Source of the DNA: Lysobacteraceae bacterium SCN 69-320
GTDB taxonomy: Bacteria; Pseudomonadota; Gammaproteobacteria; Xanthomonadales; Rhodanobacteraceae
Reading direction: 5' to 3'
Assembly: GCA_001725155.1 (NCBI GenBank)
Contig: MEFP01000001.1
Span: 124,001 to 188,000 of the forward strand
Length of the DNA stretch: 64,000 nt
Part shown: positions 13,676-42,028 of the stretch, in pieces
How positions within the stretch are numbered: the first letter of the stretch is position 1
Layout of the letters: each line of letters begins with the position of its first letter
Notes under the pieces: generated by a model
The model's input: only the letters and a program-made list of their open reading frames with translations
The model's database searches: none
What the model was told of the DNA's origin: nothing
Made by a program: the position numbers and the translations under genes

Positions 13676-13685
13676 GAAAGAAGTC

Positions 13686-15425: not shown

Positions 15426-15475
15426 GCGCCCCCTGCCGAGCTATTCCCCCCTTTTCGGATCGAACCGCCGCCCGC

Positions 15476-16693: not shown

Positions 16694-16707
16694 AACGGGA
16701 GAATGTC

Positions 16708-17139: not shown

Positions 17140-17145
17140 TGAGCG

Positions 17146-24706: not shown

Positions 24707-24727
24707 TAGAAAGAGCGGAGTGAAGCC

Positions 24728-25141: not shown

Positions 25142-25164
25142 GCCGGCCTGAAAAGCCGGTTTTC
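25142..25164 (+). terminator. intrinsic terminator of the T2SS operon
   Basis: The stem CCGGC (25143-25147) pairs with GCCGG (25155-25159), extended by a G-U pair. The loop is CTGAAAA and the tail TTTTC follows. It sits directly after the lipoprotein stop codon. Confidence 0.7.
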
Positions 25165-25170
25165 GTGGGA

Positions 25171-25199
25171 TTGCGTTGCCATGACCTTTGTTCTAGCAT
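25171..25199 (+). promoter_or_regulatory. candidate promoter of the surface-protein gene
   Basis: TTGCGT (25171-25176) and TAGCAT (25194-25199) are 17 bases apart. This gives a leader of about 100 bases. The leader contains complementary segments ACCATGC (25218-25224) and GCATGGT (25257-25263), so it can fold before the ribosome binding site AGGAG at 25294-25298. Confidence 0.4.
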
Positions 25200-25305
25200 T
25201 GGCGCGCTGTTGCCCTACCATGCCCAAAAAAGGCGGGCCAAAACCGCTGCTGCGGAGCATGGTCGGTTGTAAGCAAAAGCCCTGTGGTTCATTAGGAGTG
25301 TTGTG

Positions 25306-26820: not shown

Positions 26821-26850
26821 TATCCATCAGGTAGCAGGTGTTTCAGTAGT

Positions 26851-26882
26851 GAAAGAGGGGCCCTCGGGCCCCTCTTTTTTTT
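26851..26882 (+). terminator. strong intrinsic terminator after the surface-protein gene
   Basis: AGAGGGGCC (26854-26862) pairs with GGCCCCTCT (26867-26875) around a CTCG loop. It is followed by an unbroken run of T to 26882. This is the most classical Rho-independent terminator in the window. Confidence 0.9.
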
Positions 26883-27242
26883 GGCCTCGTCGCCGTCATC
26901 TGTTCACTGCCGGCAACCCGGGATGGGATACGGCAAAGACTGTCCGGAAATCCGGCATGGCTGGATCGGATCGGGCGGGATCTGCGCACCAGGGTGGTGC
27001 GGCGCCACGACGCGACGCGGTTGCAATTTATAAAAATATGACGGACAGGCTCGGGATTGGGTGCCTATTTATTCGCGGATCCGGGCTTTTCCCGGCACTT
27101 TTCTGCTTTGCGCCCCGGCTTCCGGCCGCGTTCCGGCCCTTCGCCTGTCGTTCACATGCAACTTGATTTAACGAAGGGTTTGCACGGAACGGCATATCCG
27201 GCGCTAAAATTCAATCGCTCTCATCTGAATTGGAACTTGTCA
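26883..27242. other. AT-richer intergenic region between two secreted-protein genes
   Basis: This stretch of 360 bases has no supported gene. Around 27020-27045 the DNA turns AT-rich (TTGCAATTTATAAAAATATG), which is unusual in this genome and could be a promoter or UP-like element. A further candidate is TTGCAC (27180-27185) with TAAAAT (27205-27210), spaced 19, which is slightly long. The in-frame extension upstream of the next gene's ATG lacks protein character. Confidence 0.4.
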
Positions 27243-28385
27243 ATGCCTGCATTGCGCCTGCCCGCCGCTGCGCTGCTGTTCACGATCGCGGCCGCCACCG
27301 GTTCTGCGAATGCCCAGACGACGCTGCGGCTCACCTGGACTCCCAACGGCGGAACGCCGAAGGTCTGCGAATATACGACCGACGCAGCCGGCGTGAGCAT
27401 GGATCCGGCGACCGGCGCCCTCGTGGCGACGGGTAGCTTTTCCGGTACGGATTGCCCGACGGGCACGGCGCCGGTTTCGGATCCGTCGATCAGCAACGGC
27501 ATCGACTCGAACGACATTCCGACGTCGACGTCGGGCAATGCGACCCACACGATCACCTGGGCCGCGAATGCGGACAGCTGCACCTATGCTGGTAGCGTCA
27601 CGCCCAGCCCGATCAGCAACTGGCCGCTGACCGGCAATGTCTGCAGCTCGGCTGCGGAATGCGCCACGGGCAAGTCGGTCGCCGTAACGATTCCGAACGT
27701 CAGCGGCAACTTCCGCTTCCAGCTCAGCTGCAACAAGGTCGGTTCCACCGTCACGGCCACTTCGGGTCAGAACGTCACGGTTACTCAGACCGGCGGCGGT
27801 GGCGGCGGCGACACCTGCGTCAATACGGCCGGTATTTCGCGCCAGACCTTCGGCACGGTCATGTACAACAGCGGTCTGTCCCGCGACGTCGACCTGACGC
27901 TGTACGAGAACGTTTTCGGCGACAACCCCGGCGGCTCGCCGCGTCTGTTCCCGGGCACGGCCGACCTGAACCAGCGCATCATGATCGCACGCAACAAGTA
28001 CGTGGCGCTGAAGTTCACCGTGCCGGCGAACTTCCCGCTGCAGACCATCGGTCAATACCGCTTCGAGGAAACCCAGCCGCAAACCACGCGCATGTCCTGG
28101 ACGATCAGCAAGACCTGCGGAGACTTCTCGATGTCGCCGGTCGCGCCGCTGACCACGTCCTGCATCATGAACAACGGCCCGGTCAACAGCACGCTGGCCT
28201 GGGGCTATGTCCAGGGCGCGTCGGCCCGTTGTCCGCTCGAGCCGGGCCAGACTTACTTCCTCAACATCATCCACGCGCCGCTGTCCAACCCGGCCAGCAC
28301 CTACTGCTCGGGTACCTGCGGCAATACGATCCAGAACCAGGGATCGGGCGCCGGCTGGCCCACCGTCATCGACGTGGACAAGTAA
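27243..28385 (+). CDS. secreted protein with glycine hinge, function unknown
   Basis: This 380-residue protein has a signal peptide (MPALRLPAAALLFTIAAATGSANAQ, cleaved near 24). Residues 25-180 are Thr/Ser/Asn-rich with short strands and several cysteines, like an immunoglobulin-type domain (ADSCTYAGSV, FRFQLSCNKVG). A flexible hinge TGGGGGGDTC near 181-190 leads to a C-terminal domain of ~190 residues with three or more Cys pairs and a YRFEETQPQTTRMSWTIS segment. I chose the ATG at 27243 because it begins the signal peptide. The family is not recognised. DsbC nearby may help its disulfides. Confidence 0.7.
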   Translation: MPALRLPAAALLFTIAAATGSANAQTTLRLTWTPNGGTPKVCEYTTDAAGVSMDPATGALVATGSFSGTDCPTGTAPVSDPSISNGIDSNDIPTSTSGNATHTITWAANADSCTYAGSVTPSPISNWPLTGNVCSSAAECATGKSVAVTIPNVSGNFRFQLSCNKVGSTVTATSGQNVTVTQTGGGGGGDTCVNTAGISRQTFGTVMYNSGLSRDVDLTLYENVFGDNPGGSPRLFPGTADLNQRIMIARNKYVALKFTVPANFPLQTIGQYRFEETQPQTTRMSWTISKTCGDFSMSPVAPLTTSCIMNNGPVNSTLAWGYVQGASARCPLEPGQTYFLNIIHAPLSNPASTYCSGTCGNTIQNQGSGAGWPTVIDVDK

Positions 28386-28493
28386 CAAGGAATCCGCCAC
28401 GACCTGCGCTGCGGCGCAGGTCGTTGGTCCAGCGGGGCCTGCGCGAGGAACTCAACTCCAGGGCCTGCGGTCCATCCAGATTCCATCAACCCG

Positions 28494-28526
28494 GTGGGCG
28501 CGCTCTGCGCGCCCCCTTTCTTTTTT
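28494..28526 (+). terminator. intrinsic terminator ending 10 bases before the next start codon
   Basis: GGGCGCGC (28496-28503) pairs with GCGCGCCC (28507-28514) around TCT. CCTTTCTTTTTT follows to 28526. It should end the preceding secreted-protein transcript, yet the isomerase ATG is at 28537. It may also act as an attenuator for that gene. Confidence 0.75.
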
Positions 28527-28536
28527 GGGATATTCA

Positions 28537-29481
28537 ATGCGCCAACTGATCCTTGCTCTCGGTCTGCTGACTTCTGCCAGCGCATTTGCAGAGGGAATTG
28601 CCAAAGACGGCGATACGCTGGTCGTGTCGCAGGGTACGGCCCGCGTGACTCTCGACGACGTCGACGCCTACGTGCATCGTATTCCTAGCACCGATCGCGT
28701 CGGCTTCATGAACAAGCCCGAGCGCATCGAAACCATGCTGCGCAGCCTGTTGCTCGACAAGCAGCTCGCCGAGGAAGCGCGCAAGCTCGGCCTGGACAAG
28801 GATCCGGTCGTGCAGAAGCAGGTCGCACTCGCAATCGACACCGCCCTGTCGCGCGTGCGCATGGAGAAGTTCCGCGAATCGCTGAAGGCGCCGGACTTCA
28901 CCGAACAGGCCTACGAGGATTACCTGGCCAACAAGACGAAGTACCAGATTCCCCGGCGCGTCGATGTCAAGCACATCCTGATCGACACCAAGTCGCGTAC
29001 GGCGGCCGAGGCTGAGGCCATCGCCAAGGAAACAGCGGAAAAGATCGCGCGCGATCCCACGCAGTTCGACGCGCTCGTCGAATCGCTGTCGGACGACCAG
29101 AGCAAAAAGGATAACCACGGTCTGATCGAGAACGCCTCGTCGGAGGCCTTCGTCGCCCCGTTCGCAGAGGCTTCCGCGAAACTGCAGAAGGTCGGCGAGA
29201 TTTCGCCGATCGTGCGCACGCCGTTCGGCTTCCATATCATCAAGCTGGTCAAGACGGAATCGGCCGTGCAGCAGCCGTACGAGAAGGTGCGTGCGCAGAT
29301 CGTCTCGCGCCTGGAGGCCGAATGGCTGGAAAGCCAGATCCGCGGCAAGCTCGACGGCCTGCGCAACGAGAAGATGGATCCGCAGCCGGAAGTGCTGGCC
29401 ACGCTACGCGAGCGCTATGGCAAGCCGGCTCTGCTGCCGTCGCAGCAGCCGGCCGCCGCCGACGCGGCCAACCCGCAATGA
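28537..29481 (+). CDS. periplasmic peptidyl-prolyl cis-trans isomerase, PpiC/SurA-like
   Basis: This 314-residue protein has a signal peptide (MRQLILALGLLTSASAFA, cleaved near 18). An N-terminal helical chaperone-like part (about 40-140, LLLDKQLAEEARKLGLDKDP) and one parvulin domain follow, with VKHILI near 144-149 and PFGFHIIKLV near 228-237. The C-terminal helix and a Gln/Ala-rich tail complete it. It catalyses proline isomerisation and holds unfolded clients in the periplasm. The ribosome binding site GGGA follows the T-tract of a terminator hairpin directly upstream. The wzm gene begins 55 bases downstream. Confidence 0.9.
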   Translation: MRQLILALGLLTSASAFAEGIAKDGDTLVVSQGTARVTLDDVDAYVHRIPSTDRVGFMNKPERIETMLRSLLLDKQLAEEARKLGLDKDPVVQKQVALAIDTALSRVRMEKFRESLKAPDFTEQAYEDYLANKTKYQIPRRVDVKHILIDTKSRTAAEAEAIAKETAEKIARDPTQFDALVESLSDDQSKKDNHGLIENASSEAFVAPFAEASAKLQKVGEISPIVRTPFGFHIIKLVKTESAVQQPYEKVRAQIVSRLEAEWLESQIRGKLDGLRNEKMDPQPEVLATLRERYGKPALLPSQQPAAADAANPQ

Positions 29482-29536
29482 TCCTGCCGCTCGTGCGGCG
29501 CTGCGCCGCACGAGCGCTGCTGCCGGGGCGGACGCA

Positions 29537-30343
29537 GTGAGCCCAACCCTGTCGCCGAGAGCCGCGCGCGTCGTCGCGGTGTTCGGGCTCGCGTTGCAGC
29601 TCGCGCGCCGCGACCTGCGCAATCGCTATCTCGGCAGCTTCAGCGGCGGTGCCTGGGCACTGGTGCAGCCGCTGGTGCAGCTCGCCGTTTATTCTTTTGT
29701 ATTCGGATACATTTTCCGCCAGCGCCTGCCGGGTGCCGATGCGCCCGGCTACGTGCCGTTCCTCGTCGTCGTGCTCTGGCCGTGGACCGCCTTCTCCGAG
29801 GCCGTGAGCCGCGCGACGACGGCGATCCAGGACAACGCCAGTCTGATCGGCAAGGTCGCGCTGCCGCGTTCGGCGCTCGTGCTTGCCCCGGTGCTCGCTT
29901 CGTTCGCGGTGCACGGCGTCGGCTATTTCGGTCTGCTGCTCGTGCTGCTTGTCGTCGGCGCAGGCATTGCGCCCGCCGGACTGCTGGCCATGCTGCCGGC
30001 GTTCGCGCTGCTGTTCCTGTTCGCGCTCGGGCTCGCGCTGCTGCTGTCGGCCTTGCAGGTATTCGTGCGCGACATCGCACCGGCTCTGCCGCAGCTGCTG
30101 ATGCTCTGGATGTTCCTGTCGCCGGTGTTCTACGGCCGTTACGTCATGCCCGAAGCAGTGCGTCCCTGGTTCGATCTGAATCCGATGACCGGATTCGCCG
30201 AATACCTGCGTTTCGTGTTGCTCGGCACGGCCGCACCCGGCTGGTCGACCCTGGCCTGCAGCCTGGCCGGTGTCACGGTCGCCGTGGCCGCTGGCGGCTT
30301 CGCGTTCCGCCGCCTGCAGCGCCATTTCGAGGACTTCCTGTGA
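29537..30343 (+). CDS. wzm: ABC-2 type polysaccharide exporter, membrane subunit (Wzm-like)
   Basis: This 268-residue ABC-2 permease has about six membrane helices and the N-terminal amphipathic signature LARRDLRNRYLGSFSGGAWALVQPL typical of O-antigen, teichoic acid and capsule exporters. FLSPVFYGRYVMPEAVRPW near 195-213 and LNPMTGFAEYLR near 216-227 match the family. No in-frame ATG lies between the previous gene and the conserved start, so I use GTG at 29537. It pairs with the downstream ATPase, whose GTG overlaps this stop (GTGA), to move undecaprenyl-linked glycan to the periplasm. Confidence 0.9.
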   Translation: MSPTLSPRAARVVAVFGLALQLARRDLRNRYLGSFSGGAWALVQPLVQLAVYSFVFGYIFRQRLPGADAPGYVPFLVVVLWPWTAFSEAVSRATTAIQDNASLIGKVALPRSALVLAPVLASFAVHGVGYFGLLLVLLVVGAGIAPAGLLAMLPAFALLFLFALGLALLLSALQVFVRDIAPALPQLLMLWMFLSPVFYGRYVMPEAVRPWFDLNPMTGFAEYLRFVLLGTAAPGWSTLACSLAGVTVAVAAGGFAFRRLQRHFEDFL

Positions 30344-31554
30344 GCGTTCTGGTGCAGGCACGCGGCTTGGGCAAGAGCTACCCGCGCGTGTTCCGCCGCA
30401 GCGACCGCCTGCGCGCGCTTGCCAACCTGTTGGCCGGCCGCGCTTCGGGCGAGGTCACGCCGGTGCTGCAGGGCATCGACCTGACCGTCGCGCGCGGTCA
30501 GTCACTGGGCCTGATCGGCGACAACGGCGCCGGCAAGTCCACATTGCTGAAGCTGCTGACCGGCGTGTTGACGCCGAGCCACGGCCAGGTCGAGGTCAAT
30601 GGCCGTGTCGGCGCGCTGCTGGAGCTCGGCGCCGGCTTCCATCCGGAATACAGCGGTCGCGACAACATCGCGATGTCGGCCACCTTGCAGGGCTTCTCCG
30701 CCGACGAGCTCGCAGCGAAGCTCGACGACATCGTCGCGTTCGCCGACATCGGCCACTACATCGACGAGCCGGTCAAGCACTACTCCTCGGGCATGGTCGT
30801 GCGGCTCGGATTCGCGATCGTCGCGGCGACGCGGCCGGACCTGCTGATCACCGACGAGGTGCTGGCCGTCGGCGACGAATCCTTCCAGAAGAAATGCATA
30901 CGCTGGATGGAGGACTATCTCGAACAGGGCGGCACCCTGATCCTCGTCTCGCACAGCATGTACCACATCCAGAAGCTGTGCCGGCAGGCACTGTGGCTGC
31001 GCCAGGGCCGCATGCAGGCCTGCGGCGACGTATACGAAGTGACCCAGGCCTACCTGGCCTATCACGAACGCAAGTCGGCTGGCGAAGAAACCCGCGCCCG
31101 CGATCTCGAGGCCGTGCGCGGCCTCGAATTCCACGTGCGGTCGATGCGCGTCAACGGCGAGGAAGCAGAAACGCTGCCGGCGCTGGAGCAGGGCGCCGCG
31201 CTGATCGTCGAGGCGACCATTGCGTCGCGCGACGGCCGCGTGCCCGTCATCAATGTCGGCATCGCCCGTGCCGACGGCACGCCGGTCTATGGCGTCAGCA
31301 GCGACATGGACGGCGTGCAGCCGGCGCCGCTGGCCGATGGCGACTACCGCATCGTGCTGCATTTCGCCGAGTTGCCGTTGCTGCCGGGCAGCTATACCGT
31401 CCGCGTGCATCCGCTGGACAGCGAAGGCATGCGTCTGTTCGACACGGTCGAGCGCACGCTGACTGTCAAGGGGCGCAGCTCGGAGTCGGGACTGGTGCGC
31501 CTGGCCCACGTCTGGGAACATGCCGCCCCCCTGAGCAGGAGCCGAAGCGAATGA
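30340..31554 (+). CDS. wzt: polysaccharide ABC exporter ATPase with glycan-recognition domain (Wzt-like)
   Basis: At 404 residues this is the long Wzt form. The nucleotide-binding domain has Walker A GDNGAGKST near 65-73, signature YSSGM near 148-152 and Walker B LLITDEVLAVGDE near 167-179. Residues beyond ~255 form a beta-sandwich like the Wzt C-terminal domain, which recognises the capped end of the glycan before export. A methyltransferase gene follows, and terminal methylation is a common cap for such systems. The start is GTG at 30340, overlapping wzm. Confidence 0.92.
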   Translation: MSVLVQARGLGKSYPRVFRRSDRLRALANLLAGRASGEVTPVLQGIDLTVARGQSLGLIGDNGAGKSTLLKLLTGVLTPSHGQVEVNGRVGALLELGAGFHPEYSGRDNIAMSATLQGFSADELAAKLDDIVAFADIGHYIDEPVKHYSSGMVVRLGFAIVAATRPDLLITDEVLAVGDESFQKKCIRWMEDYLEQGGTLILVSHSMYHIQKLCRQALWLRQGRMQACGDVYEVTQAYLAYHERKSAGEETRARDLEAVRGLEFHVRSMRVNGEEAETLPALEQGAALIVEATIASRDGRVPVINVGIARADGTPVYGVSSDMDGVQPAPLADGDYRIVLHFAELPLLPGSYTVRVHPLDSEGMRLFDTVERTLTVKGRSSESGLVRLAHVWEHAAPLSRSRSE

Positions 31555-32465
31555 GCGCTGGCGCAGCCCTGGATTTCACCGGCGAGCGCTTCACCCCCGA
31601 GTGCGTGCGCGAGATCTGGTACGAGCATTGGCACCGTTATGCGATGGTCCGCGCCTGGGCGCGAGGCCGCCGCGTGCTCGACGCGGCCTGCGGCGAAGGC
31701 TACGGCAGCGCCCTGCTGGCCCAGGTCGCCGATTCGGTGCTCGGCCTCGATGTCGACCCGGCCGCCGTCGCCCATGCGCGCGAGCGCTATGCCGCCGCGG
31801 CGGCCAATCTGCGCTTCGATCAGGCCGACGCGACCCGGCTGCAGCTGGCGCCGGGCAGTTTCGATCTCGTCGTGTCGTTCGAGACGCTGGAACATGTCCA
31901 AGCCCAGGACGCGCTGCTCGACGGTCTCGGCAACGCCCTGGCCGACGACGGCCTGCTGGTGATTTCCTCGCCCGACAAGGCCACCTACAGCGATGCGGCC
32001 GGCTTCCGCAACGAATACCACGTACGCGAGCTGTATCGCGACGAGTTCGAGGCCCTGCTGCGTCGCCGCTATCCCTATGTACGGCTGTATGCGCAGCGCC
32101 TGCTGTTCCAGTCGGCGATCTGGAGCGTGGACCCGCCCGATCTGGCCGCGGCGGGGCAGTACCTGACCTCCGGCAGCGACGGCCGCGTCGACGACGGCCT
32201 GGCCTACGCGCCGATGTACTACATCGCGGTTTGCTCGCGTCGGCCGCTGCCCGAGCTGCCGGCGACGTCCTGGTTCGGCGATCGCGACGAATCGGTCTAT
32301 CAGCACTACAATCACGAAATCCGCAAGAACATGGCGGCCGGCGCACGCATCGCCGAGCTCGAGGCGCAGGTCGCGGCCTTGCAGCGCGAGCAGGCGGCGG
32401 CCGGCGGTCGGCCGGCCGCGGTCACGGCGCGGCGGCCCTGGTGGCGCTTCTGGGGCGCCGACTAG
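31551..32465 (+). CDS. SAM-dependent methyltransferase of the polysaccharide cluster
   Basis: This 304-residue protein has a class I methyltransferase fold. Motif I is VLDAACGEGYGSALLA near 42-57, the acidic end of strand 2 is VLGLDVDPAA near 63-72, and DLVVSFETLEHV lies near 104-115. After about 270 comes a charged helix (RIAELEAQVAALQREQAA), likely a coiled coil, then a Trp-rich tail. It overlaps wzt (ATGA). Coiled-coil methyltransferases beside Wzm/Wzt in other bacteria cap the growing chain (WbdD-like), which is an attractive but unproven role here. Confidence 0.85.
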   Translation: MSAGAALDFTGERFTPECVREIWYEHWHRYAMVRAWARGRRVLDAACGEGYGSALLAQVADSVLGLDVDPAAVAHARERYAAAAANLRFDQADATRLQLAPGSFDLVVSFETLEHVQAQDALLDGLGNALADDGLLVISSPDKATYSDAAGFRNEYHVRELYRDEFEALLRRRYPYVRLYAQRLLFQSAIWSVDPPDLAAAGQYLTSGSDGRVDDGLAYAPMYYIAVCSRRPLPELPATSWFGDRDESVYQHYNHEIRKNMAAGARIAELEAQVAALQREQAAAGGRPAAVTARRPWWRFWGAD

Positions 32466-32664
32466 CCCCGGCAGCCGGCAGTCCCTGACGGGGTTGCAGC
32501 GGCCAGGCGCTGGCCTCCAACCGGCGAAACGACGGCAGCGCGATGACGGACGCGGGCCGGCAGCAGATCGACCCCGGCCGCGGTTCGCGGCAATCCGCCA
32601 GCAACGACAGCGATGCGCAGCGGCCCGCGGCCCTGCGCCGATACAGGCAAAGGCAACCGGCTTC

Positions 32665-34530
32665 ATGAGCAACAACCTGCAGTACCAATACACTTTCGAC
32701 GCCACGCCGCAGCCGCCCGCGCCGCTGCGTCCGGACCCGAATGCGCCGCTGTTCGCGTCCGAGGACGCCGTCGTCGCCTCGCTGTCCAACAGCGAATGCG
32801 TGTTCCAGGTCAAGCGCACGGGCGATGCCCACGTGATGACCTTCCAGGTGCTGCAGGCACTGGACCAGTGCCGCGAATTCCGCACGATGGACGAGCACGT
32901 TGCGCGAATCCAGAGCACGATTCCGGGCCTGGAGCACCAGCGCGAAGCGGTCACGCGCGTGCTGCAGAGCCTCGTCGAGCGCGACCTGCTGATCTCCGAC
33001 GACCGCTTCACCGAACGTCTGCGCGGCGGCGCGACGCCGGCGACCGCGCCGTTGCGCGCGATCTTCGTGCGCGCCTGCGACCGTCCGGCCCAGCTCGAAC
33101 GCCTGCTCGCCTCGATCGGCGACTACGAGCGCCGGTCGCGTGCCGGCCGCCATTACGTCGTGCTCGACGATTCGGTGCTGTCGGCCAACATCGACCGGCA
33201 CCGCGACCTGCTGCGCGAGTTCGCACGCACCACCGGCTGCAAGGTCACCTACGTCGGTCCGGCCGAGCGCCAGCGCCTGGTCGAGCGCTTGGCCAAGGCT
33301 GTGCCGAACAGCCAGACGGCGTTGCAGCGGCTGCTGCTGCCACAAGCCGGTGCGACGCGCTTCGGCGGCGGGCGCAGCTGGAATCTCGCGCTGCTGCTGT
33401 CGGCCGGTGGACGGCTCGCCCTGTTCGACGACGACCAGCGCCTGCCACTGCGCCGGCACGAACTGGTTCGCAGCGGCCTCGACCTCAATCCGACCCACCT
33501 GCCGTTCGCGCGCTTCTACCGCAACATGGAAGAGGCGCTGGCCGCCGGCGAGGAAATCGCCGACGACCCGTTCAACCTGCATCTGGACGTCTGCGGGATC
33601 GGCGTCGGCGAGCTCGTATCGCGCGGCGAATACGGGCTCAATCGCGAGTCGCTGCGCGGCCTGAATCTCGCGCGTCTGGCGCATCTGAACAGCGACACGC
33701 GTGTGCTCGCGACGCAGCAGGGCACCTACGGCAGTGCGCGTTCGGAAAGCGCGGCCTGGATCTATCACCTCGACGCGGCCGGGCGCGCGGACCTGTGCTC
33801 CAGCCGCGAGGCCTACCTGACCAACATCGAGGCGCAGTTCATCTGGCAGGGCACCGCCCGCGCACGGCTCGCGTCGATTTCCTGGTTTACACCGTTCGCG
33901 TTCGACAACAGCCAGCTGCTGCCGTGCACGAATGCGGTCGGCCGTGGCGAAGACGCGCTGTTCTCGGCCGCCGCGCATTTCTGCCATCCGGATGCGCTCG
34001 TGCTCGAACTGCCGGTCGCGGTCGGCCATCTGCAGGAACAGTCGCGCAGTCGTTCGGCACGCACCCTGCAGGCCAATACGCCACGGGTGAACCATTTCGC
34101 GACCGACTATATCCAGCGCCAGTTCGGCACCTTCCTCGCGAGCGACGCGGGGCAGCGCCTGGGCCTGCTGGCCGACATCTTCCGCGACCTCGCCGGCGCG
34201 AGCCAGAACGCGCGCATCACGCACCTGCGCGAATACCTCAACTACGTGCGCGCCGATGCGATCGAGCGCCTGCAGCAGCAGTTCGAGGCCGCCAGCGACG
34301 CGCCGGTCTACTGGCAGGCCGACGTGCGCAGCATCATCGACGCGAACGGCCGCGCGCTGATCGCCAAGGCGCCGCCGCGCCTGGGCGACTGGAGCGACGA
34401 ATTCGATGCGCCCGCCTGCGCGCAGGCCCTGAGCCAGGAGCTCGGCGAACTCGCCGACAGCTATGACACCTGGCCGCAGCTGTGGCAGCACGCGCGCGAG
34501 GCCGGCGACAAGCTGCTGGCCGGCGTCTGA
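32665..34530 (+). CDS. putative glycosyltransferase with N-terminal PqqD-like winged-helix domain
   Basis: This 621-residue protein is not one I can name. Residues 28-112 resemble a PqqD-type peptide-recognition fold: a strand pair (SECVFQVKRTGDAHVMTF), then ALDQCREFRTMDEHVARI and a closing helix VLQSLVERDLLIS. Residues 130-470 look like a GT-A glycosyltransferase: RACDRPAQLERLLASI, YVVLDDS, and GGRLALFDDDQRLP with Asp triplet 255-257. The remainder is helical. The ATG at 32665 is preferred; an in-frame extension to 32494 is low-complexity Arg/Gln. It sits between the methyltransferase and a GT2 gene, so glycan assembly is the default role. A carrier-peptide substrate is an open alternative. 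Confidence 0.7.
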   Translation: MSNNLQYQYTFDATPQPPAPLRPDPNAPLFASEDAVVASLSNSECVFQVKRTGDAHVMTFQVLQALDQCREFRTMDEHVARIQSTIPGLEHQREAVTRVLQSLVERDLLISDDRFTERLRGGATPATAPLRAIFVRACDRPAQLERLLASIGDYERRSRAGRHYVVLDDSVLSANIDRHRDLLREFARTTGCKVTYVGPAERQRLVERLAKAVPNSQTALQRLLLPQAGATRFGGGRSWNLALLLSAGGRLALFDDDQRLPLRRHELVRSGLDLNPTHLPFARFYRNMEEALAAGEEIADDPFNLHLDVCGIGVGELVSRGEYGLNRESLRGLNLARLAHLNSDTRVLATQQGTYGSARSESAAWIYHLDAAGRADLCSSREAYLTNIEAQFIWQGTARARLASISWFTPFAFDNSQLLPCTNAVGRGEDALFSAAAHFCHPDALVLELPVAVGHLQEQSRSRSARTLQANTPRVNHFATDYIQRQFGTFLASDAGQRLGLLADIFRDLAGASQNARITHLREYLNYVRADAIERLQQQFEAASDAPVYWQADVRSIIDANGRALIAKAPPRLGDWSDEFDAPACAQALSQELGELADSYDTWPQLWQHAREAGDKLLAGV

Positions 34531-34543
34531 TCGCGGCGCCCGC

Positions 34544-35440
34544 ATGACGGCGCCGTCGCTGACCAGCATCGTCGTCGTCGCCGCCGACAGCGGAGCCGGC
34601 CTCGTCGATGCGGCAAGGCGCGCGCTTGCGAGCAGCGTGCCGGTAGAGCTGATCATCAGCGACAACGCCAGCAGCGACGGCAGCGTCGCGGCGGTCGAGG
34701 CCCAGTTCGGTGCCGATCCGCGCGTGCGCATCGTCCACAACGGGAAAAATCTCGGTTTCGGCGCCGGCGTCAATCGCGTCGCGGCGCAAGCCCGCGGCGA
34801 CCATCTGCTGATCCTCAATCCCGATTGCCTGCTCGACACCGACACGGTCGAGCGCCTGCTTGCGCAGGCGGCGGCCGTGCCGCGGCTCGGCCTGCTCGGC
34901 GCGCGCATACGCCACCCCGACGGCAGCGACGAAGCCGCCTCGCGGCGTCGTGACCCGACCCTGCGCCGCAGCCTGATGACCTTGAGCGGTCTCGCGCGCT
35001 TCGCCGCGGACCGGCCGGCATGGCAGGGCGTCAACGAGCCGCTGGATGAAGCCGTGCGCGGTGCCGACGGCCCCGCCGAAGCGGTATCCGGGGCGCTGAT
35101 GCTGCTGCCGCGCGCGGCGTTCGACGCGGTCGGCGGCTTCGACGAAGGCTATTTCCTGCACTGCGAGGATCTTGACCTCTGTCGGCGCCTGCGCGACGCG
35201 GGCTACGCGGTGCATTACGCCGGTTCGATCGCGGTCGTCCACGGCAAGGGGGGATCGAGCCGCCATCGCCCGGTGTTCGTCGCCTGGCACAAGCATCGGG
35301 GCATGTGGCGCTGGTTCCGCCGCTTCGATCCGGCCGCGCACCGGCCGCTGCTGTCCGGCCTGGTCTGGCTCGGACTGTGGGCGCGCTTCGCCGCGTCGCT
35401 GCCGCTGCTGCTCTGGCGCAAACGGCGGCGCGCGCGCTGA
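34544..35440 (+). CDS. family 2 glycosyltransferase, rhamnosyltransferase-like
   Basis: This 298-residue GT-A enzyme begins SIVVVAADSG. It has DNASSDGS near 40-47, NLGFGAGVNR near 68-77 and the metal-binding stretch LILNPDCLL near 89-97. GGFDEGYFLHCEDLDLCRRL near 197-216 matches the acceptor/catalytic segment of WbbL-type transferases. The C-terminal helix with basic residues (LLLWRKRRRAR) suggests membrane association. It is the last plus-strand gene of the polysaccharide cluster, 13 bases after the previous one. Confidence 0.92.
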   Translation: MTAPSLTSIVVVAADSGAGLVDAARRALASSVPVELIISDNASSDGSVAAVEAQFGADPRVRIVHNGKNLGFGAGVNRVAAQARGDHLLILNPDCLLDTDTVERLLAQAAAVPRLGLLGARIRHPDGSDEAASRRRDPTLRRSLMTLSGLARFAADRPAWQGVNEPLDEAVRGADGPAEAVSGALMLLPRAAFDAVGGFDEGYFLHCEDLDLCRRLRDAGYAVHYAGSIAVVHGKGGSSRHRPVFVAWHKHRGMWRWFRRFDPAAHRPLLSGLVWLGLWARFAASLPLLLWRKRRRAR

Positions 35441-35447
35441 AGTGCGG

Positions 35448-36116
35448 TTACCAGTGCTCGCCGAGCACGGCCGGCACGTAGCGTGCGCCGCGTTCGGCGA
35501 CGAGGCGCGAATAGATCTCGCCGTCGGACGTCAGGGAGCGGTCGTACCAGCCGCCGATCTCGCGCCAGATCGTCGTCTTCGCGACCAGCTGCAGGCAGTC
35601 GATCAGGCCGACGATGGCCGGTATGCCGGTGTAGATCAGCACGCTGTTGGTCCACGAGGTGTTGCGATACAGCGCGCCGCGGCCGCTGTAGCTCATGCCG
35701 CGCATCAGGATGCCGAAGATCAGGATATCCGGGTTCTCGGTCATCTGTTCGTTCGGGCCCGGCCGCACCGGAACGCGGCTCCAGTAGTCGATGACTTCGA
35801 GCGCGTTCGGATACAGCAGATTGTCCGGGTTGAAATGCACGATGTACTCGCCGCGCGCGGCGCGGATGCCGAGATCGCGCAGCGAATGACCCCAGTCGTC
35901 GTGGCGCTGCGACGTGATCTCCACGCGCAGGCGCTCGCCGAAACCCAGGCCGGACAGATCCGGCAACGGCCGCGACAGCGGACCGTCGTGATACAGCAGC
36001 ACCTCGAAATCCTGCAGCGTCTGCTCGGCCAGGCAGCGCATGCCGCGCAGGAAGAATTCGTCGTTGACGCTGCCGTCGTAGTGCGGCACGACGATGCTGT
36101 AGCGCGGTTGGCGCAT
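35448..36116 (-). CDS. family 2 glycosyltransferase, small
   Basis: This 222-residue protein has a GT-A start (RYSIVVPHYDGSVNDEFF), an Asp-containing nucleotide site HDGPLS near 42-48, HDDWGHSLRDLGIRAARGEY near 72-91 and the metal-binding HFNPDNLLYP near 94-103. It lacks the long C-terminal region of typical GT2 enzymes. It converges with the preceding GT gene, the stops being 7 bases apart, so it belongs to the same cluster but is transcribed separately. Confidence 0.85.
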   Translation of the reverse strand: MRQPRYSIVVPHYDGSVNDEFFLRGMRCLAEQTLQDFEVLLYHDGPLSRPLPDLSGLGFGERLRVEITSQRHDDWGHSLRDLGIRAARGEYIVHFNPDNLLYPNALEVIDYWSRVPVRPGPNEQMTENPDILIFGILMRGMSYSGRGALYRNTSWTNSVLIYTGIPAIVGLIDCLQLVAKTTIWREIGGWYDRSLTSDGEIYSRLVAERGARYVPAVLGEHW

Positions 36117-36288
36117 GGGTGAGTCTCCGAGGGTAGTCGATACGAGCCTTCATCGGATGCGGCGAAGGCCATGCACGAGGCTCTGCGGAATGCGGCGGCC
36201 ATCTGCCGGGTGTGCATCCCGCGCGCCGTCGCGGCGCCCAGTTCCTGACGGAGCAGGGCGCCGCGCCCCCCAGGCGGCGGCGTGCCGC

Positions 36289-37950
36289 TCAGGCCAGCTT
36301 CTTGTAGCGCACGCGGTGCGGCCTGGCCGCCTCGTCACCGAGGCGACGCTTCTTGTCTTCCTCGTATTCGCGATAGTTGCCGGTGAAGAACTCGACGTGC
36401 GAGTCGCCTTCGAACGCGAGAATGTGCGTCGCGATGCGGTCGAGGAACCAGCGGTCATGCGAGATGACCATCGCGCAGCCCGGGAATTCGAGCAGGGCTT
36501 CTTCCAGCGCGCGCAGGGTTTCCACGTCGAGGTCGTTGGACGGTTCGTCGAGCAGCAGCACGTTGCCGCCCTGCATCAGGGTCTTGGCCAGATGCAGGCG
36601 GCCGCGCTCGCCGCCGGACAACTGGCCGACGATCTTCTGCTGGTCCTGGCCCTTGAAGTTGAAGCGACCGATGTAGGCGCGTGACGGCGTCTGGTACTTG
36701 CCGACGGTGATCATGTCCGAGCCGCCGGACACTTCCTGCCAGACATTGTTCGTGCCTTCGAGCTTCTCGCGCGACTGGTCCACATAGGCCAGCTGAACGG
36801 TCTGGCCGATCGCGATCTCGCCCTTGTCGGGCTTTTCCACGCCGGTCAGCAGCTTGAAGAAGGTCGATTTGCCGGCGCCGTTCGGACCGATGATGCCGAC
36901 GATCGCGCCGGGCGGCACGCGGAAGGACAGGTCGTCGATCAGCAGGCGGTCGCCGAACGCCTTGGACACATGCTTGAACTCGATGACCATGTCGCCGAGG
37001 CGTTCGCCGGGCGGAATGTAGATCTCGTTCGTTTCGTTGCGTGCCTGGTATTCGACCGAGTTCAGTTCCTCGAAGCGGTTCAGGCGCGCCTTGCCCTTGG
37101 ACTGGCGGCCCTTGGCGTTCTGGCGCACCCACTCGAGCTCGCGCTGGATCGCTTTCTGGCGCGACTTTTCCTGCTGCGCTTCCTGCTTCAGGCGTTCGTC
37201 CTTCTGTTCCAGCCAGGACGTGTAGTTGCCCTTCCACGGGATGCCGCGGCCGCGGTCGAGTTCCAGAATCCACTCTGCCGCATTGTCGAGGAAGTAGCGG
37301 TCATGGGTGACCGCCACGACGGTGCCGGGGAAGTCGGCCAGGAACTGCTCCAGCCATTCCACCGATTCGGCGTCGAGGTGGTTGGTCGGCTCGTCCAGCA
37401 GCAGCATGTCGGGCTTGGACAGCAGCAGGCGGCACAGTGCCACGCGGCGCTTCTCGCCACCGGAGAGGTTGGCGATCTTCGCGTCCCAGTCCGGCAGTCG
37501 CAGCGCGTCGGCGGCGACTTCGAGCTGGCGTTCCAGGGTATGCGCGTCGGTTGCCGCGAGGATGTTCTCCAGACGCTGCTGCTCGGCCGCGAGCTTGTCG
37601 AAATCCGCGCCTTCCTCGCCGTAGGCCGCGTACACCTCGTCGAGGCGCTGCTGCGCGTGCAGGATGTCGGAAACGCCTTCCTCGACGCATTCGCGCACGG
37701 TCTTGTTCGGGTCGAGCTCGGGCTCCTGCGGCAGATAGCCGACCTTGAGGTCGGGCTGCGGCCGCGCTTCGCCGACGAAATCCTGATCGACGCCGGCCAT
37801 GATGCGCAGAACCGTGGATTTGCCCGAGCCGTTGAGGCCGAGCAGGCCGATCTTGGCGCCGGGGAAGAACGACAGCGAGATGTCCTTGATGATCTCGCGC
37901 TTCGGGGGCACGACCTTGCTGACCCCGATCATGGTGTAGACGTACTGCAT
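36289..37950 (-). CDS. ettA: energy-dependent translational throttle protein EttA (ABC-F)
   Basis: This 553-residue ABC-F ATPase has two nucleotide-binding domains and no membrane part. Walker A motifs are GLNGSGKST near 38-46 and GPNGAGKST near 350-358. Signatures are LSGGEKRR and LSGGERGR. The linker between domains (about 242-320) is long, helical and basic, matching the P-site tRNA interaction motif of EttA. It binds the ribosomal E site and gates the first peptide bond according to ADP/ATP ratio. It appears to be monocistronic. Confidence 0.97.
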   Translation of the reverse strand: MQYVYTMIGVSKVVPPKREIIKDISLSFFPGAKIGLLGLNGSGKSTVLRIMAGVDQDFVGEARPQPDLKVGYLPQEPELDPNKTVRECVEEGVSDILHAQQRLDEVYAAYGEEGADFDKLAAEQQRLENILAATDAHTLERQLEVAADALRLPDWDAKIANLSGGEKRRVALCRLLLSKPDMLLLDEPTNHLDAESVEWLEQFLADFPGTVVAVTHDRYFLDNAAEWILELDRGRGIPWKGNYTSWLEQKDERLKQEAQQEKSRQKAIQRELEWVRQNAKGRQSKGKARLNRFEELNSVEYQARNETNEIYIPPGERLGDMVIEFKHVSKAFGDRLLIDDLSFRVPPGAIVGIIGPNGAGKSTFFKLLTGVEKPDKGEIAIGQTVQLAYVDQSREKLEGTNNVWQEVSGGSDMITVGKYQTPSRAYIGRFNFKGQDQQKIVGQLSGGERGRLHLAKTLMQGGNVLLLDEPSNDLDVETLRALEEALLEFPGCAMVISHDRWFLDRIATHILAFEGDSHVEFFTGNYREYEEDKKRRLGDEAARPHRVRYKKLA

Positions 37951-38198
37951 GGGACTCGTTCCGGAAGGCGGAAAGTCGGCAATTATCGGTCATGGCCGCC
38001 GTCGCGGCCAGTGTGACGGCGCCGGCCCGGGGCAGCGCCGGACACACGTTCGCCCGCGGTCCGCACGGGCGGAGGCGTTCGCAGCCTCTGCGACTGCTCC
38101 GGCGCATCATCGGCTTGCCGCCATCGTCACGGACTGCGCCGCCTCCGGAGCGGCCGGTGGCGGCACCCCTGAACGTCATCACCGACAAGGAGCAATAC

Positions 38199-38678
38199 AT
38201 GATCAGGAAATTCTGCGGCCTCGCGCTGGCGGCCTTTCTCGCCCCCGGCATCGCGGCGGCCAGCGACGGACCGTTCGCCAATGTCAACGCACTGAAAAGC
38301 TACTGGACTTCGGCGGCCGGCAGCGGCCACGTCGAAATCTTCGTCAACGGCCGGGAGGTTCTCGACATTCCCGGCAGCAATCCGTCCTTCGTCAAGCAGT
38401 ATTTCAGCTGCCTGCTGACCAACGACATCCGCGTGCACTGCAACAGCGGCTACGACGGCGCCGAGCTGCTCTCCGATCTCGTCGCCACGCTCGATGCCGG
38501 CGCGGAAATCTGGGTGAACGGCACGCTGTACCGTGCCGGCTCGGGTCCCACCCCCTACGACCGGGCCGAGATCGAGCGCTGCACCGGCGATTCGAGCTAC
38601 TACGGCCCCGAACGGTACTACCTGGTCACGGCGTATTACGACGGCTTCGGCGTGCCCTACGGCAACAACTGCTACTGA
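38199..38678 (+). CDS. small secreted protein, unknown function
   Basis: This 159-residue protein has a signal peptide (MIRKFCGLALAAFLAPGIAAAS, cleaved near 21). The mature part has four cysteines (YFSCLLTND, VHCNSGYDG, IERCTGDS and the C-terminal NNCY), suggesting two disulfides, and is rich in Tyr/Gly/Asn near the end. ACAAGGAG lies just before the ATG, which supports this start over longer in-frame reading. I do not recognise the family. It is isolated between divergent ettA and a convergent glycosyltransferase and ends at a shared hairpin terminator. Confidence 0.75.
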   Translation: MIRKFCGLALAAFLAPGIAAASDGPFANVNALKSYWTSAAGSGHVEIFVNGREVLDIPGSNPSFVKQYFSCLLTNDIRVHCNSGYDGAELLSDLVATLDAGAEIWVNGTLYRAGSGPTPYDRAEIERCTGDSSYYGPERYYLVTAYYDGFGVPYGNNCY

Positions 38679-38714
38679 GCGTCGACGGGGCGGATAGCCC
38701 TCACTGACCTCACG

Positions 38715-38741
38715 GCGCGGCCGCGAAAGCGGCCGCGCTTT
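38715..38741. terminator. bidirectional GAAA-capped hairpin terminator
   Basis: GCGCGGCCGC (38715-38724) and GCGGCCGCGC (38729-38738) flank a GAAA tetraloop, followed by TTTCC on the plus strand. It lies between the convergent secreted-protein gene and the GT gene, so it can serve both. Confidence 0.7.
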
Positions 38742-38759
38742 CCGCGCGAACATCCTGCC

Positions 38760-39746
38760 TCAATCCGGTGGCGCGCCCAGCCAATGCGCAATCCAGTCGT
38801 AGATCGGCTCGATCTGCGCTTCGTCGGCGCAAAGCAGCGTGCCCGGGCGGAATGGCGCGGCCGCCGTGCGTGGCTGCAACTCCGGGAATTTGCCGAGGAA
38901 ACGCTGCGCGTAGCCCTGCCAGCTCGCCGCGAAATTGCCGCCGGAGGCATGCCAGAGCAGCAGATCCAGCGCGACCGCGCAGCGCAGGCCGGCGCGGTGA
39001 GCGCGCCAGCTCAGGTCCAGGTCGTAGAAATGGAAGCCGTCGAACGCCGCCGCGTCGAAGCCCAGCGCGCGCAGCGCGTCGCGGCGGCCGGCCAGGAACA
39101 AGCCGTCGAGCGCCTGGGCGTCCTCGACGACCGGTCCCCACGCGCCAAGCAGGCCGAGCAGCCAGCCCTCGCCGTGCGGCTGGCTGACCCAGGATGCCGT
39201 ATGCGGCGGGCCGGCCCAGAACCATTTGGGTCCGTCCAGCCGGTCGCTGCCGGCGACGCCGATCAGGTCGTGGTCGGCCAGATGCTCGCGCAGACGCCTG
39301 GCGAAACGCCGGCTCAGGATGCCGATGTCGTCGTGGCACAGCACGACAAGCTCGCCGCCCGCGCGCTCCAGGCCGCGGCCATAGCCCTCGCACAGCGAGC
39401 GCGCGTCGCCGATGACGATGAGTTCCCAGTCCTCGCCGGCGAGTTCTCGGTCGAGGTCCGCGCGCAGCCGCGCGAGCCGTGCCGGATCAATGCTGCAGAC
39501 GACGACCGAGATCGCGCCGGCAGCCTGGACCTGCGGCGGCGGCAGCGGCGCGCGGCGGCCGGCGGCGACCTGCCGCGCGGCGCATTCGAGCAGGCCCTGG
39601 GCGGCGACCGCCAGGTCCGGCGCAGCGCGCCACGCCCCGCGCAGCGCGGTGGCCGCGGCGTTCCAGTCACCGGCACCGCCGGCCGCCAGGCCTTGCTGCA
39701 GCAGGCGCTGCGCGCGGTCCGGATCGCTGGCGGGATAGATTCTCAT
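38760..39746 (-). CDS. glycosyltransferase with GT-A fold, partner of the GT41 gene
   Basis: This 328-residue protein starts with a helical ~75-residue segment resembling one or two TPR-like hairpins (AQRLLQQGLAAGGAGDWNAAATALRGAW). A GT-A domain follows: ISVVVCSIDPARLARLRADL near 79-98, GYGRGLERAGGELVVLCHDDIGI near 120-142 (DD as likely metal site) and FDGFHFYDLDLSWRAHRAG near 237-255. The family resembles transferases that use NDP-sugars on surface glycans or glycoproteins. Its ATG overlaps the stop of the upstream GT41 gene by four bases, so the two form one unit. Confidence 0.82.
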   Translation of the reverse strand: MRIYPASDPDRAQRLLQQGLAAGGAGDWNAAATALRGAWRAAPDLAVAAQGLLECAARQVAAGRRAPLPPPQVQAAGAISVVVCSIDPARLARLRADLDRELAGEDWELIVIGDARSLCEGYGRGLERAGGELVVLCHDDIGILSRRFARRLREHLADHDLIGVAGSDRLDGPKWFWAGPPHTASWVSQPHGEGWLLGLLGAWGPVVEDAQALDGLFLAGRRDALRALGFDAAAFDGFHFYDLDLSWRAHRAGLRCAVALDLLLWHASGGNFAASWQGYAQRFLGKFPELQPRTAAAPFRPGTLLCADEAQIEPIYDWIAHWLGAPPD

Positions 39747-41926
39747 GCGTCGCGTGGCTGCACCTGGCGCAGGAAATCGGCGAAGGCCGTGCAGACCTCG
39801 CGGTCGTCGAACAGCCGATGTTTGGACTCGCCGATGCGCCGCTCCAGCGCGCGCCGCCGTTCCGACGATCCGGCCAGCGCGACGGCACGGGCGACGTAGT
39901 CGTCGACCGAGTCGGCGATCAGCTCGTCGAGACCGAGGCGCGCGAGCATGGCCATGCTCTGGCGACCGCGCATGCACTCGCCGGGCAGGGTCAGCCAGAC
40001 GCGCTCCTGCCATAGCGCATCGAGTGTCGTGATGCCGCCGGAAAAGCCGAAGCTGTCGAGCAGCAGGTCGGCGTCGGCGATGTGTTGGCGGTAGTCGGCG
40101 GCGCAGAGGGTCGCATGCAGGCGCACGCGCGCCGGGTCGACGCCGGCTGCCGCGAGCGCCGGTTGCAGACGCCGCTCCAGACCGGCGACCTGTTCGTCGG
40201 TCGCGGCGGTCAGGAAATCCAGGGTTGCCGTCGGCGCGCCGGCCAGGATGCGTGCGAACACCGCATCGTGCTGCGGATGCAGCTTGTACAGGTTCTGCGC
40301 GCAGACCAGGCGCGCGCCTGACGTTTCCGCGCGGCGTGCCAGCGGCGTTTCGTCGGGCAGCGCGAAACAGCCGCCCAGGCGCGGCAGGCGCAGCAGGCTC
40401 TCGCTGTAATGCGCCTCGGCGCCGGGCGGTTCTGCGTCTTCGGCCGACACGAACCAGTCGATCGCCGCCGCGCCGCTGGTGATCGGATGCGCCCAGGTCG
40501 ATATCTGCACCGGCGCATGGCGCAGCGCAGCCAGGCATTGGTTGACCACGTCCAGGCCGAGGTCGAGGAACACCAGCACGTCGAGTTCGGCCGCGCGCAG
40601 GCGTGCAGTCCAGGCGGCAAAGCTGTCGGCACCGGCCGCATAGTGGTCGGCGCGCGCGCGGAAGCGCTGCACCATGGCATCGTCGCGCGTGCCGGTATGG
40701 AACACGTGCAGCTCGAAATCAGCGGCGGGCAGGGCGAGCAGCGCTTCGCCCCAGGCGCGCGTGACCGAATGCCGGTGCAGGCAGCTCGACACCAGGCCGA
40801 TGCGGCGGCGTGCGCGCGTGATCGGCCGCGGGGCAATGTCCGCGTACGCACCGCCGGTCGCCGTATCGAGCAGACGCCGCACGAGGCGGGCGTGACGCTT
40901 GTGCAGCTCGACGTGGGCGCCGTCCTGATACGCCAGCGCGAAGTTCGGCACGCTGCCGAGCAGGTGCTGCGCCGTGGCCGCGTCGAGATCGGCCCGTTCG
41001 AACTCGGTCAGGCCGCGCTCGAAATCCCGCAGCCATTCGGCGCGGGCCGGTTCCGACGCGAAGCAGGGCAGATCCGGCGTGTGGAACAGCATCCAGCGCG
41101 CGAGCCATCGCTGCGGTTCACGCTGCAGCAGCCCGCGGAACAGCGCGTTCGCCGCGGCCGTGCGGTGCGCGCCGATCAGGGCCAGGCCGAGCTTTTCCTC
41201 GGCCTCGACCGAGCCCGGCTGCAGCGCGAGCAGCCGCTCGCGCACCTGCACGGGCTCGTCACCGCCGCAGCGCGCCGCGTCCAGCGCCGCGGCGCGACGC
41301 TGCCATAGCGCCAGGTTGGCGGGCGCCAGCTCGGTCGCGCGGCGCAGCGCGGCGGTGCTGGCGGGCCAGTCCTGCCGGGCGGCCGCGGCCTGGCCCAGTG
41401 CATCCCAGGCGGCGGCCTGGTCGGGCAGCCATTCGACGAGGCGCTCGGCATGAAAGCGCGCGGCTGCCGCGTCGCCGCGGGCCAGTGCGTCGCCAACCAG
41501 GCCCAGCCGTGCGGCGGGCACGCCGGCGACAGCGCGGATCGCGTCGAACTCGCGTTCGGATTCGTCAAACCGGTGCAGCAGCCCGAGCACATGGCCGCGC
41601 AGGAAGGCATCGGCGGAAGGCAGCGGCTGCAGCCGGCGCAGCTGCGCCGAAGCCTGGTCTGCTTCGGCCAACTGGCCGGTTTCCAGCGCGTTGATCGCCA
41701 GCTCGCGCCAGGCGGCGGCCAGGCGCGGCTCCAGCGCGACGGCCTGTCGCAGCGCGGAGGCGCCGGCGCCGCGCTCGCCGCGCGCGCGCAGCAACTGGCC
41801 CAGTTGCAGATGCAGCGCCGCATCGCGCGGGCGTCGCGCCAGCGCGCGGCGGCAGATCTCCTCGGCGGCGGCCGCGTCGCCGCGACGCAGGGCCTGCTGG
41901 ATTTTCTCGGCTGACTGATCCGACAC
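39743..41926 (-). CDS. TPR-containing O-GlcNAc-transferase-like protein (GT41, bacterial SPINDLY type)
   Basis: This 727-residue protein has a TPR superhelix in about residues 1-280 (for example ALHLQLGQLLRARGERGAGA). The GT41 catalytic half contains SSCLHRHSVTRAWGEALL, HPITSGAAAIDWFVS, HYSESLLRLPRLGGCF, AQNLYKLHPQHDAVF and a UDP-sugar site near LLLDSFGFSGGITTLDALW with GECMRGRQ. Such enzymes add N-acetylglucosamine-type sugars to Ser/Thr of proteins. I chose GTG at 41926, which has GGAG six bases upstream. An ATG at 41995 would add 23 residues but lies in the glyA promoter region. The target protein is unknown. Confidence 0.88.
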   Translation of the reverse strand: MSDQSAEKIQQALRRGDAAAAEEICRRALARRPRDAALHLQLGQLLRARGERGAGASALRQAVALEPRLAAAWRELAINALETGQLAEADQASAQLRRLQPLPSADAFLRGHVLGLLHRFDESEREFDAIRAVAGVPAARLGLVGDALARGDAAAARFHAERLVEWLPDQAAAWDALGQAAAARQDWPASTAALRRATELAPANLALWQRRAAALDAARCGGDEPVQVRERLLALQPGSVEAEEKLGLALIGAHRTAAANALFRGLLQREPQRWLARWMLFHTPDLPCFASEPARAEWLRDFERGLTEFERADLDAATAQHLLGSVPNFALAYQDGAHVELHKRHARLVRRLLDTATGGAYADIAPRPITRARRRIGLVSSCLHRHSVTRAWGEALLALPAADFELHVFHTGTRDDAMVQRFRARADHYAAGADSFAAWTARLRAAELDVLVFLDLGLDVVNQCLAALRHAPVQISTWAHPITSGAAAIDWFVSAEDAEPPGAEAHYSESLLRLPRLGGCFALPDETPLARRAETSGARLVCAQNLYKLHPQHDAVFARILAGAPTATLDFLTAATDEQVAGLERRLQPALAAAGVDPARVRLHATLCAADYRQHIADADLLLDSFGFSGGITTLDALWQERVWLTLPGECMRGRQSMAMLARLGLDELIADSVDDYVARAVALAGSSERRRALERRIGESKHRLFDDREVCTAFADFLRQVQPRDA

Positions 41927-41965
41927 GCACGACTCCGGCCGCGGTCCTGCGCCGGGCTTATTCAG

Positions 41966-41995
41966 TTGGGACAGGGGGCGCGAAACCGCTAACAT
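41966..41995 (+). promoter_or_regulatory. candidate promoter of glyA
   Basis: TTGGGA (41966-41971) and TAACAT (41990-41995) are 18 bases apart, 33 bases before the glyA ATG. This is the only TANNNT box here with a fair -35. It lies in the gap divergent to the GT41 gene. Confidence 0.4.
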
Positions 41996-42028
41996 CGGCG
42001 GATTCCCAGCCCAGAAGGCGATTCTCCC

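Follow-up and report, generated by a model that had tools for sequence, protein, structure and literature searches.

Among described proteins, RiPP recognition elements (RREs; PqqD and the RREs of TbiB1, LynD/TruD and ThcOx) and GT2/GT-A enzymes (GpgS and GlfT2 among the structural matches) come closest to the two main domains of the protein reported here. With the former it shares the fold, the order of secondary structure elements and profile similarity, but its RRE precedes a GT-A core within one protein, encoded in a surface-glycan locus; the gaps scanned yielded no precursor peptide, and PF05402 is silent. With the latter it shares the GT-A fold, with DDS and DDD falling on GT2 motifs, but PF00535 is silent on the protein, which carries extra N- and C-terminal domains. 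The surrounding locus is reminiscent of the WbdD-type systems for Wzm/Wzt_C-dependent, methyl-terminated O-polysaccharides, which, we presume, likewise combine Wzt_C with a methyltransferase bearing a coiled-coil-like tail; the likeness to this methyl-terminated glycan system is drawn from the genes, the WbdD kinase part aside. In Aeromonas, S-layer and type II secretion system (T2SS) genes are described between wzm and wzt (PMC4483657), so that the A-layer/wbsalmo locus likewise joins them to wzm/wzt O-antigen genes, but its gene order differs and no RRE-glycosyltransferase is mentioned in the passages on that locus. The NpdA S-layer loci, as presented in the passages of PMC10765051 that concern them, likewise place T2SS genes next to a secreted protein of ~50 kDa, in overlapping genera; nowhere does the main text of that paper contain the words "glycosyl", "LPS", "lipopolysaccharide" or "anchor".

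Fusions of an RRE to a glycosyltransferase are already in print: passages of PMC7470986 and, with PF00535, of PMC12710340 mention them, and they are of the same kind as ours but in a RiPP setting, the likeness being by description and not member by member. The original prediction, which knew of no described family with this arrangement, is hence too broad as regards the fusion itself, but stands for the present family and locus, which are absent from those fusion passages. We found no paper dedicated to this family or locus, or to the glycan half of NpdA loci, in a survey of titles and abstract openings in the open-access literature (with few subscription papers covered), and both family and locus are apparently undescribed in the literature so searched.

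The window is a stretch of 64,000 nucleotides from Lysobacteraceae bacterium SCN 69-320 (contig MEFP01000001.1). The features discussed below are listed here with their positions in it; RRE-GT denotes the fusion protein, and residue numbers refer to it.

13650-24706, plus strand: type II secretion genes (assigned by Pfam: E, F, H, another pseudopilin, L (PilN), M and D; assigned only from their position: C and K)
24728-25141, plus strand: small lipoprotein-like gene, recognized by eye
25306-26820, plus strand: secreted-looking protein of 504 aa with a signal-like start, NpdA-like S-layer candidate
27243-28385, plus strand: second secreted-looking protein, assigned to no family and less conserved
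28537-29481, plus strand: PPIC-type peptidylprolyl isomerase (PPIase; Pfam on a longer frame), with a signal-like start
29537-30343, plus strand: Wzm-like ABC-2 permease, start uncertain (Pfam on a longer frame; below the NCBIfam cut-offs)
30340-31554, plus strand: Wzt ATPase with a C-terminal Wzt_C domain (34.0 bits, cut-off 30.4)
31551-32465, plus strand: SAM methyltransferase with an ESVYxHYNHEIRKN-like stretch, a coiled-coil-like stretch (by eye) and a basic/Trp-rich end
32665-34530, plus strand: RRE-GT protein, 621 aa (residues ~25-120 RRE/PqqD-like, 125-470 GT-A, 475-621 helical)
32665-32730, plus strand: its disordered N-terminal tail with alternating aromatic residues (LQYQYTFD in the window, MEFEFNFG in relatives)
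32737-33024, plus strand: its RRE/PqqD-like domain (AlphaFold2 models, Foldseek, hhalign)
33037-34074, plus strand: its GT-A core (DDS168-170, DDD255-257, ED429-430, H455)
34544-35440, plus strand: GT2 glycosyltransferase (Pfam), conserved downstream neighbour

The RRE-GT frame is complete, without internal stop, its start at 32665 is common to the Tahibacter relatives (L061-L066), and a 95% identical copy is encoded by Tahibacter caeni, so that we regard the genome as Tahibacter-like. By itself, the protein stays below every Pfam and NCBIfam cut-off and has no NCBIfam match up to E 1. A sequence search of the PDB gave no match, and a search with the family profile returned a GT2 enzyme at E 0.016 together with two unrelated chains, which weakly favours the GT core. 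Homologues (E up to 0.001) were detected in 116 of the 299 genomes sampled from the order. A family-profile search of 398 genomes of the phylum, with three candidates scored per genome, gave 21 matches, of which only those from the genome under study and from one genome of the same family (G022) were full length; the remaining 19 cover a short stretch that corresponds roughly to the GT region. The AlphaFold2 model of the full-length protein has a mean pLDDT of 91.5 and a pTM of 0.89.

The original assignment of the N-terminus to a PqqD-type domain was borne out. Modelled alone (pLDDT 81.4) or within the full-length protein, residues 1-125 show strands at 29-32, 35-39, 44-49 and 55-59 followed by helices at 60-67, 75-85 and 93-105, so that residues 29-105 show the element order of an RRE plus an additional strand at its front. 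In the Foldseek search with residues 1-125, ranks 1-21 are all RRE-bearing by title or enzyme type (best E 3.1e-3, none below 0.001); they include heterocyclases, TbiB1, ThcOx, TigE, PbtF, MadB, a sactipeptide enzyme and lasso B1, enzymes that we take to contain RREs. Unrelated proteins follow from rank 22, and PqqD (5sxy) is found at rank 37 (E 1.3). Profile comparison by hhalign with 14 PF05402 domains of relatives yielded a probability of 92.6% over 88 columns, as against at most 7.5% in 100 column shuffles, 0.2% for the reversed profile and below 1% for the GT and C-terminal parts of the same protein; similarity to PqqD was called at a profile probability of at least 80%, here against PF05402 domains of relatives, whereas PMC7470986 used the PDB profiles 5SXY and 3G2B. 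PF05402 itself matches neither the window protein nor anything else in its genome, and the N-domain profile, searched against the PDB, returned one unrelated chain (E 3.5) and no PqqD, a result that counts against the assignment. Among the 91 distinct homologues, F72 is found in 91 and H78 in 89. We consider the RRE/PqqD-like fold confirmed at the level of structural models, and we predict that the domain binds a peptide.

A GT-A core with a DDD site at residues 255-257 had likewise been anticipated, and it is supported by both structure and profile comparisons. Foldseek with the full model lists glycosyltransferases (by title or enzyme type) in 46 of the best 50 rows, at low TM-scores (at most 0.43 by target) and with E below 0.001 in 2 of these 50. 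With hhalign, the core matches the PF00535 domains of the genome (23 of 24 matches, L208 being left out) at 88.3% over 101 columns, compared to at most 0.7% in 60 shuffles, and this alignment places DDS168-170 and DDD255-257 on GT2 motifs; we assume that ED429-430 and H455 correspond to, and act as, further GT2 motif residues. Against the downstream GT2 family alone, the probability is 3.9%. PF00535 is matched in 20 of 48 homologues at E up to 1 (best 1.3e-4), and a weak GNT-I match occurs in five of the 48 (best E 8.6e-4). The catalytic letters are strongly conserved: D255 in 91/91 homologues, D257 in 84/91, D430 in 84/91 and H455 in 87/91. We regard as confirmed, on sequence and model grounds, that a GT-A core follows the RRE-like domain, and catalysis is predicted.

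The window protein retains all catalytic motifs. All ten letters are present in 59 of the 91 homologues, and the changes in the others are in many cases mild, e.g. D256E. Seven distinct homologues (L041, L043, L044, L047, L034, L045 and L038) have lost at least two of the four catalytic motifs, and three more have lost one. The seven occupy four separate places in a FastTree tree (branch supports not considered); all have Wzm and Wzt upstream, L038 without a detected methyltransferase, and six come from genomes with a single match. Four of them, forming one clade, also lack the aromatic tail. This tail (pLDDT under 50 for residues 1-16) is placed without confidence in both the full-length and the 1-125 models; its aromatic pattern, fixed after the sequences had been viewed, is found in 71 of the 91 homologues, which are related sequences, versus 2.6 on average and 9 at most in 500 shuffles (an earlier form of the pattern, run without a control, occurred in 54 of 101 proteins).

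The Wzm/Wzt setting named in the original prediction was found, with the Wzm-like permease and the Wzt_C gene upstream of the methyltransferase, and the conserved context is wider than that prediction foresaw, as it includes the type II secretion and putative S-layer genes. We compared 86 main-clade loci, 28 from the order sample and 58 from a second search (some genomes may be shared), counting neighbours on the same strand and excluding from each count the loci with too little flank. The methyltransferase lies just upstream in 80/82 and the GT2 gene just downstream in 79/80; Wzt is found in 74/77 loci, Wzm in 73/76, the PPIase in 69/75, the small gene in 57/69, the secreted protein in 46/49, gspD in 41/49 and the second secreted protein in 34/75. 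Twelve distant homologues (L049-L060, 26-30% identical) have none of these neighbours on the same strand (0/2 to 0/11, depending on the neighbour); nine of them share gene clusters that Pfam, in the scanned locus L053, names as threonine-pathway. Near five of the twelve we noted two kinds of short conserved ORF. Among 11 loci picked by the secreted protein, the methyltransferase and GT2 genes adjoin without an RRE-GT gene between them in eight, so that the glycan can be made without RRE-GT; three of these eight genomes carry a homologue elsewhere.

The secreted protein is represented by at least six copies in its own genome, and it was detected in 139 of the 299 order genomes and, in a class-wide sample of 274, in 9, the genome under study included. 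Among the 299, both it and RRE-GT are found in 104 genomes, RRE-GT only in 12, the secreted protein only in 35 and neither in 148, counts that are uncorrected for kinship. Seven of the 35 were checked near the locus with the profile, and one proved to have a divergent RRE-GT in place. Some paralogues of the secreted protein (L143-L150) are arranged in tandem, and many have a C-terminal GLPxTGF...NYSG-like stretch; we did not accept the LPxTG-like string in the secreted protein as a sortase signal.

Assuming removal of 26 residues, the secreted protein would have a mass of ~50 kDa. NpdA is described in PMC10765051, in the passages dealing with it, as having a signal peptide, ~52 kDa and gsp genes upstream, and is listed there in Tahibacter, Rudaea, Dokdonella and Chiayiivirga; Delftia NpdA has ~61 kDa. 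The window holds the arrangement typical of NpdA, T2SS genes beside a secreted protein close to 52 kDa, and by size, signal-like start, T2SS neighbours and host genera the protein is a candidate NpdA-type S-layer protein, the match being one of description. On a Comamonas plasmid, a "cell surface protein" with 30.8% identity over 76% to the window protein lies in the order gspE to gspD, small gene, "cell surface protein", PPIase, ABC permease, ABC ATPase and two methyltransferases, followed by a GT2 gene on the opposite strand; tblastn with the window methyltransferase found no match to the two methyltransferases of this locus at E 1e-3. The whole locus, RRE-GT included, is present in Rudaea cellulosilytica DSM 22992 (L070). 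This strain is among the cultures of PMC10765051, in which one culture, possibly DSM 22992 or another, is given as without an S-layer.

The permease, the ATPase with Wzt_C and the methyltransferase form a Wzm/Wzt_C export set, from which we predict a methyl-terminated glycan. The tail of the methyltransferase (31551-32465) has an ESVYxHYNHEIRKNMAAG-like stretch followed by a coiled-coil-like one, with a PWWRRW-like end in some relatives; a tail specific to RRE-GT-containing loci was sought and not found. A Glyco_tranf_2_5 gene and a TPR/GT41 (OGT-like) gene lie near the locus on the minus strand (38760-42000). A second Wzt_C gene is located in the same genome ~63 kb away, outside the window (C1:92514-92927), hence the glycan of the locus may not be the main exported glycan or O-antigen of the genome.

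We propose that RRE-GT is a cytoplasmic GT-A glycosyltransferase that would add a sugar to the glycan of its own locus. This glycan would be methyl-capped by the neighbouring methyltransferase, recognized by Wzt_C, exported by Wzm/Wzt, and would probably hold or coat the type-II-secreted S-layer-like protein encoded upstream. The RRE may have been reused as a docking module that would hold a peptide of a protein from the same assembly alongside its third strand and third helix, the way RREs do; candidates for this peptide lie in the methyltransferase tail, in the GT2 partner and in the aromatic tail at the N-terminus of a second RRE-GT copy. To this reading as a whole, with RRE-GT as a builder of the methyl-capped, ABC-exported glycan of an S-layer locus and its RRE reused for docking, we assign a probability of roughly 0.5. 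It is favoured by the two folds and the GT motifs, Wzt_C, the conserved neighbours, the co-occurrence with the secreted protein, the Comamonas gene order and the NpdA and Aeromonas precedents. Two findings complicate it, namely the loci in which methyltransferase and GT2 adjoin without RRE-GT and the seven homologues with lost catalytic motifs next to Wzm and Wzt. The distant homologues outside such loci, the second Wzt_C gene, the unmatched Comamonas methyltransferases and the poorly placed N-terminal tail also weigh against it. The computations yielded two folds, conserved catalytic letters and a conserved gene order; the sugar, the acceptor, the docking partner and the role of the glycan in the S-layer are what we infer. 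Of the readings offered in the original prediction, a repurposed domain with a different partner fits best.

The other suggestion made there, glycosylation of a short peptide, found no support, as the gaps of 22403-42000, compared with six Tahibacter relatives, yielded no short ORF that seems conserved as protein. Our scan covered 22 short ORFs in these gaps, leaving aside ORFs mostly inside called genes, and none of the 22 looks conserved as protein. The only well-conserved short ORFs are five that overlap on both strands at 25096-25373; here the DNA itself is conserved, hence we read it as a regulatory or leader stretch. The gap that precedes the secreted-protein gene (25142-25306) shows 88-98% identity in the six relatives, above the other gaps compared, and has no Rfam match up to E 1; it could be the promoter and leader of a gene with strong expression, and as a RiPP precursor it was set aside as probably regulatory. 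In the 199-base gap before the RRE-GT gene, conservation ends beyond the closest relatives. That the protein is a RiPP enzyme acting on a short precursor, as its RRE fold, the fusions mentioned among possible RiPP clusters in PMC7470986 and the short ORFs near five distant homologues might suggest, is in our opinion highly improbable: the conserved precursor gene expected near such an enzyme was not found in the gaps of 22403-42000 in the six relatives, the short ORFs of the distant homologues have no counterpart in the window or in main-clade loci, and no radical-SAM or peptidase family passes its cut-off in the 19 scanned window neighbours and RRE-GT.

The peptide-binding nature of RRE folds could also be taken to mean that RRE-GT acts in the cytoplasm on an exported protein, of which the S-layer candidate is the likeliest, glycosylating it directly while the RRE reads one of its segments like a leader peptide. 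The co-occurrence of this multi-copy protein family with RRE-GT in the same locus and the weak GNT-I matches agree with such a role, but proteins exported by Sec are unfolded when they cross the membrane, so that a sugar added beforehand in the cytoplasm would be unusual, and the 35 genomes with the secreted protein and without an RRE-GT match also speak against it (one of seven checked has a divergent copy); on balance we find it rather unlikely. It is quite improbable that RRE-GT is mainly a scaffold, with the GT-A core kept for structure, even in part of the family. The decayed homologues, with their four places in the tree, their retained Wzm and Wzt and, in six of seven cases, a genome with a single match, are what one would expect of a scaffold, but the window protein keeps all motifs, most homologues match all ten letters, and many other changes are mild. 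A general cell process, with the position in the locus due to history only, would accommodate the distant homologues, which sit elsewhere, but is hard to reconcile with the near-constant place of main-clade genes between the methyltransferase and the GT2 gene, and we hold it to be very unlikely.

To our knowledge, little is known about the anchoring of Gram-negative S-layers beyond the well-studied ones. With a T2SS, a candidate S-layer protein, a folding helper for the periplasm and an exporter for a capped glycan all encoded together, the conserved locus offers a testable model of such an anchor. Tentatively, and with more doubt than confidence, we suggest a broader picture in which the RRE fold has left peptide natural products for surface biogenesis: a widespread RRE-GT family of the order would couple an ABC-exported glycan to a type-II-secreted S-layer through peptide docking on a partner from the locus, and in several lineages the catalytic core would decay while docking persists. 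If this is true, an RRE working outside RiPP synthesis would be a warning to genome miners who take an RRE as the sign of a peptide natural product.
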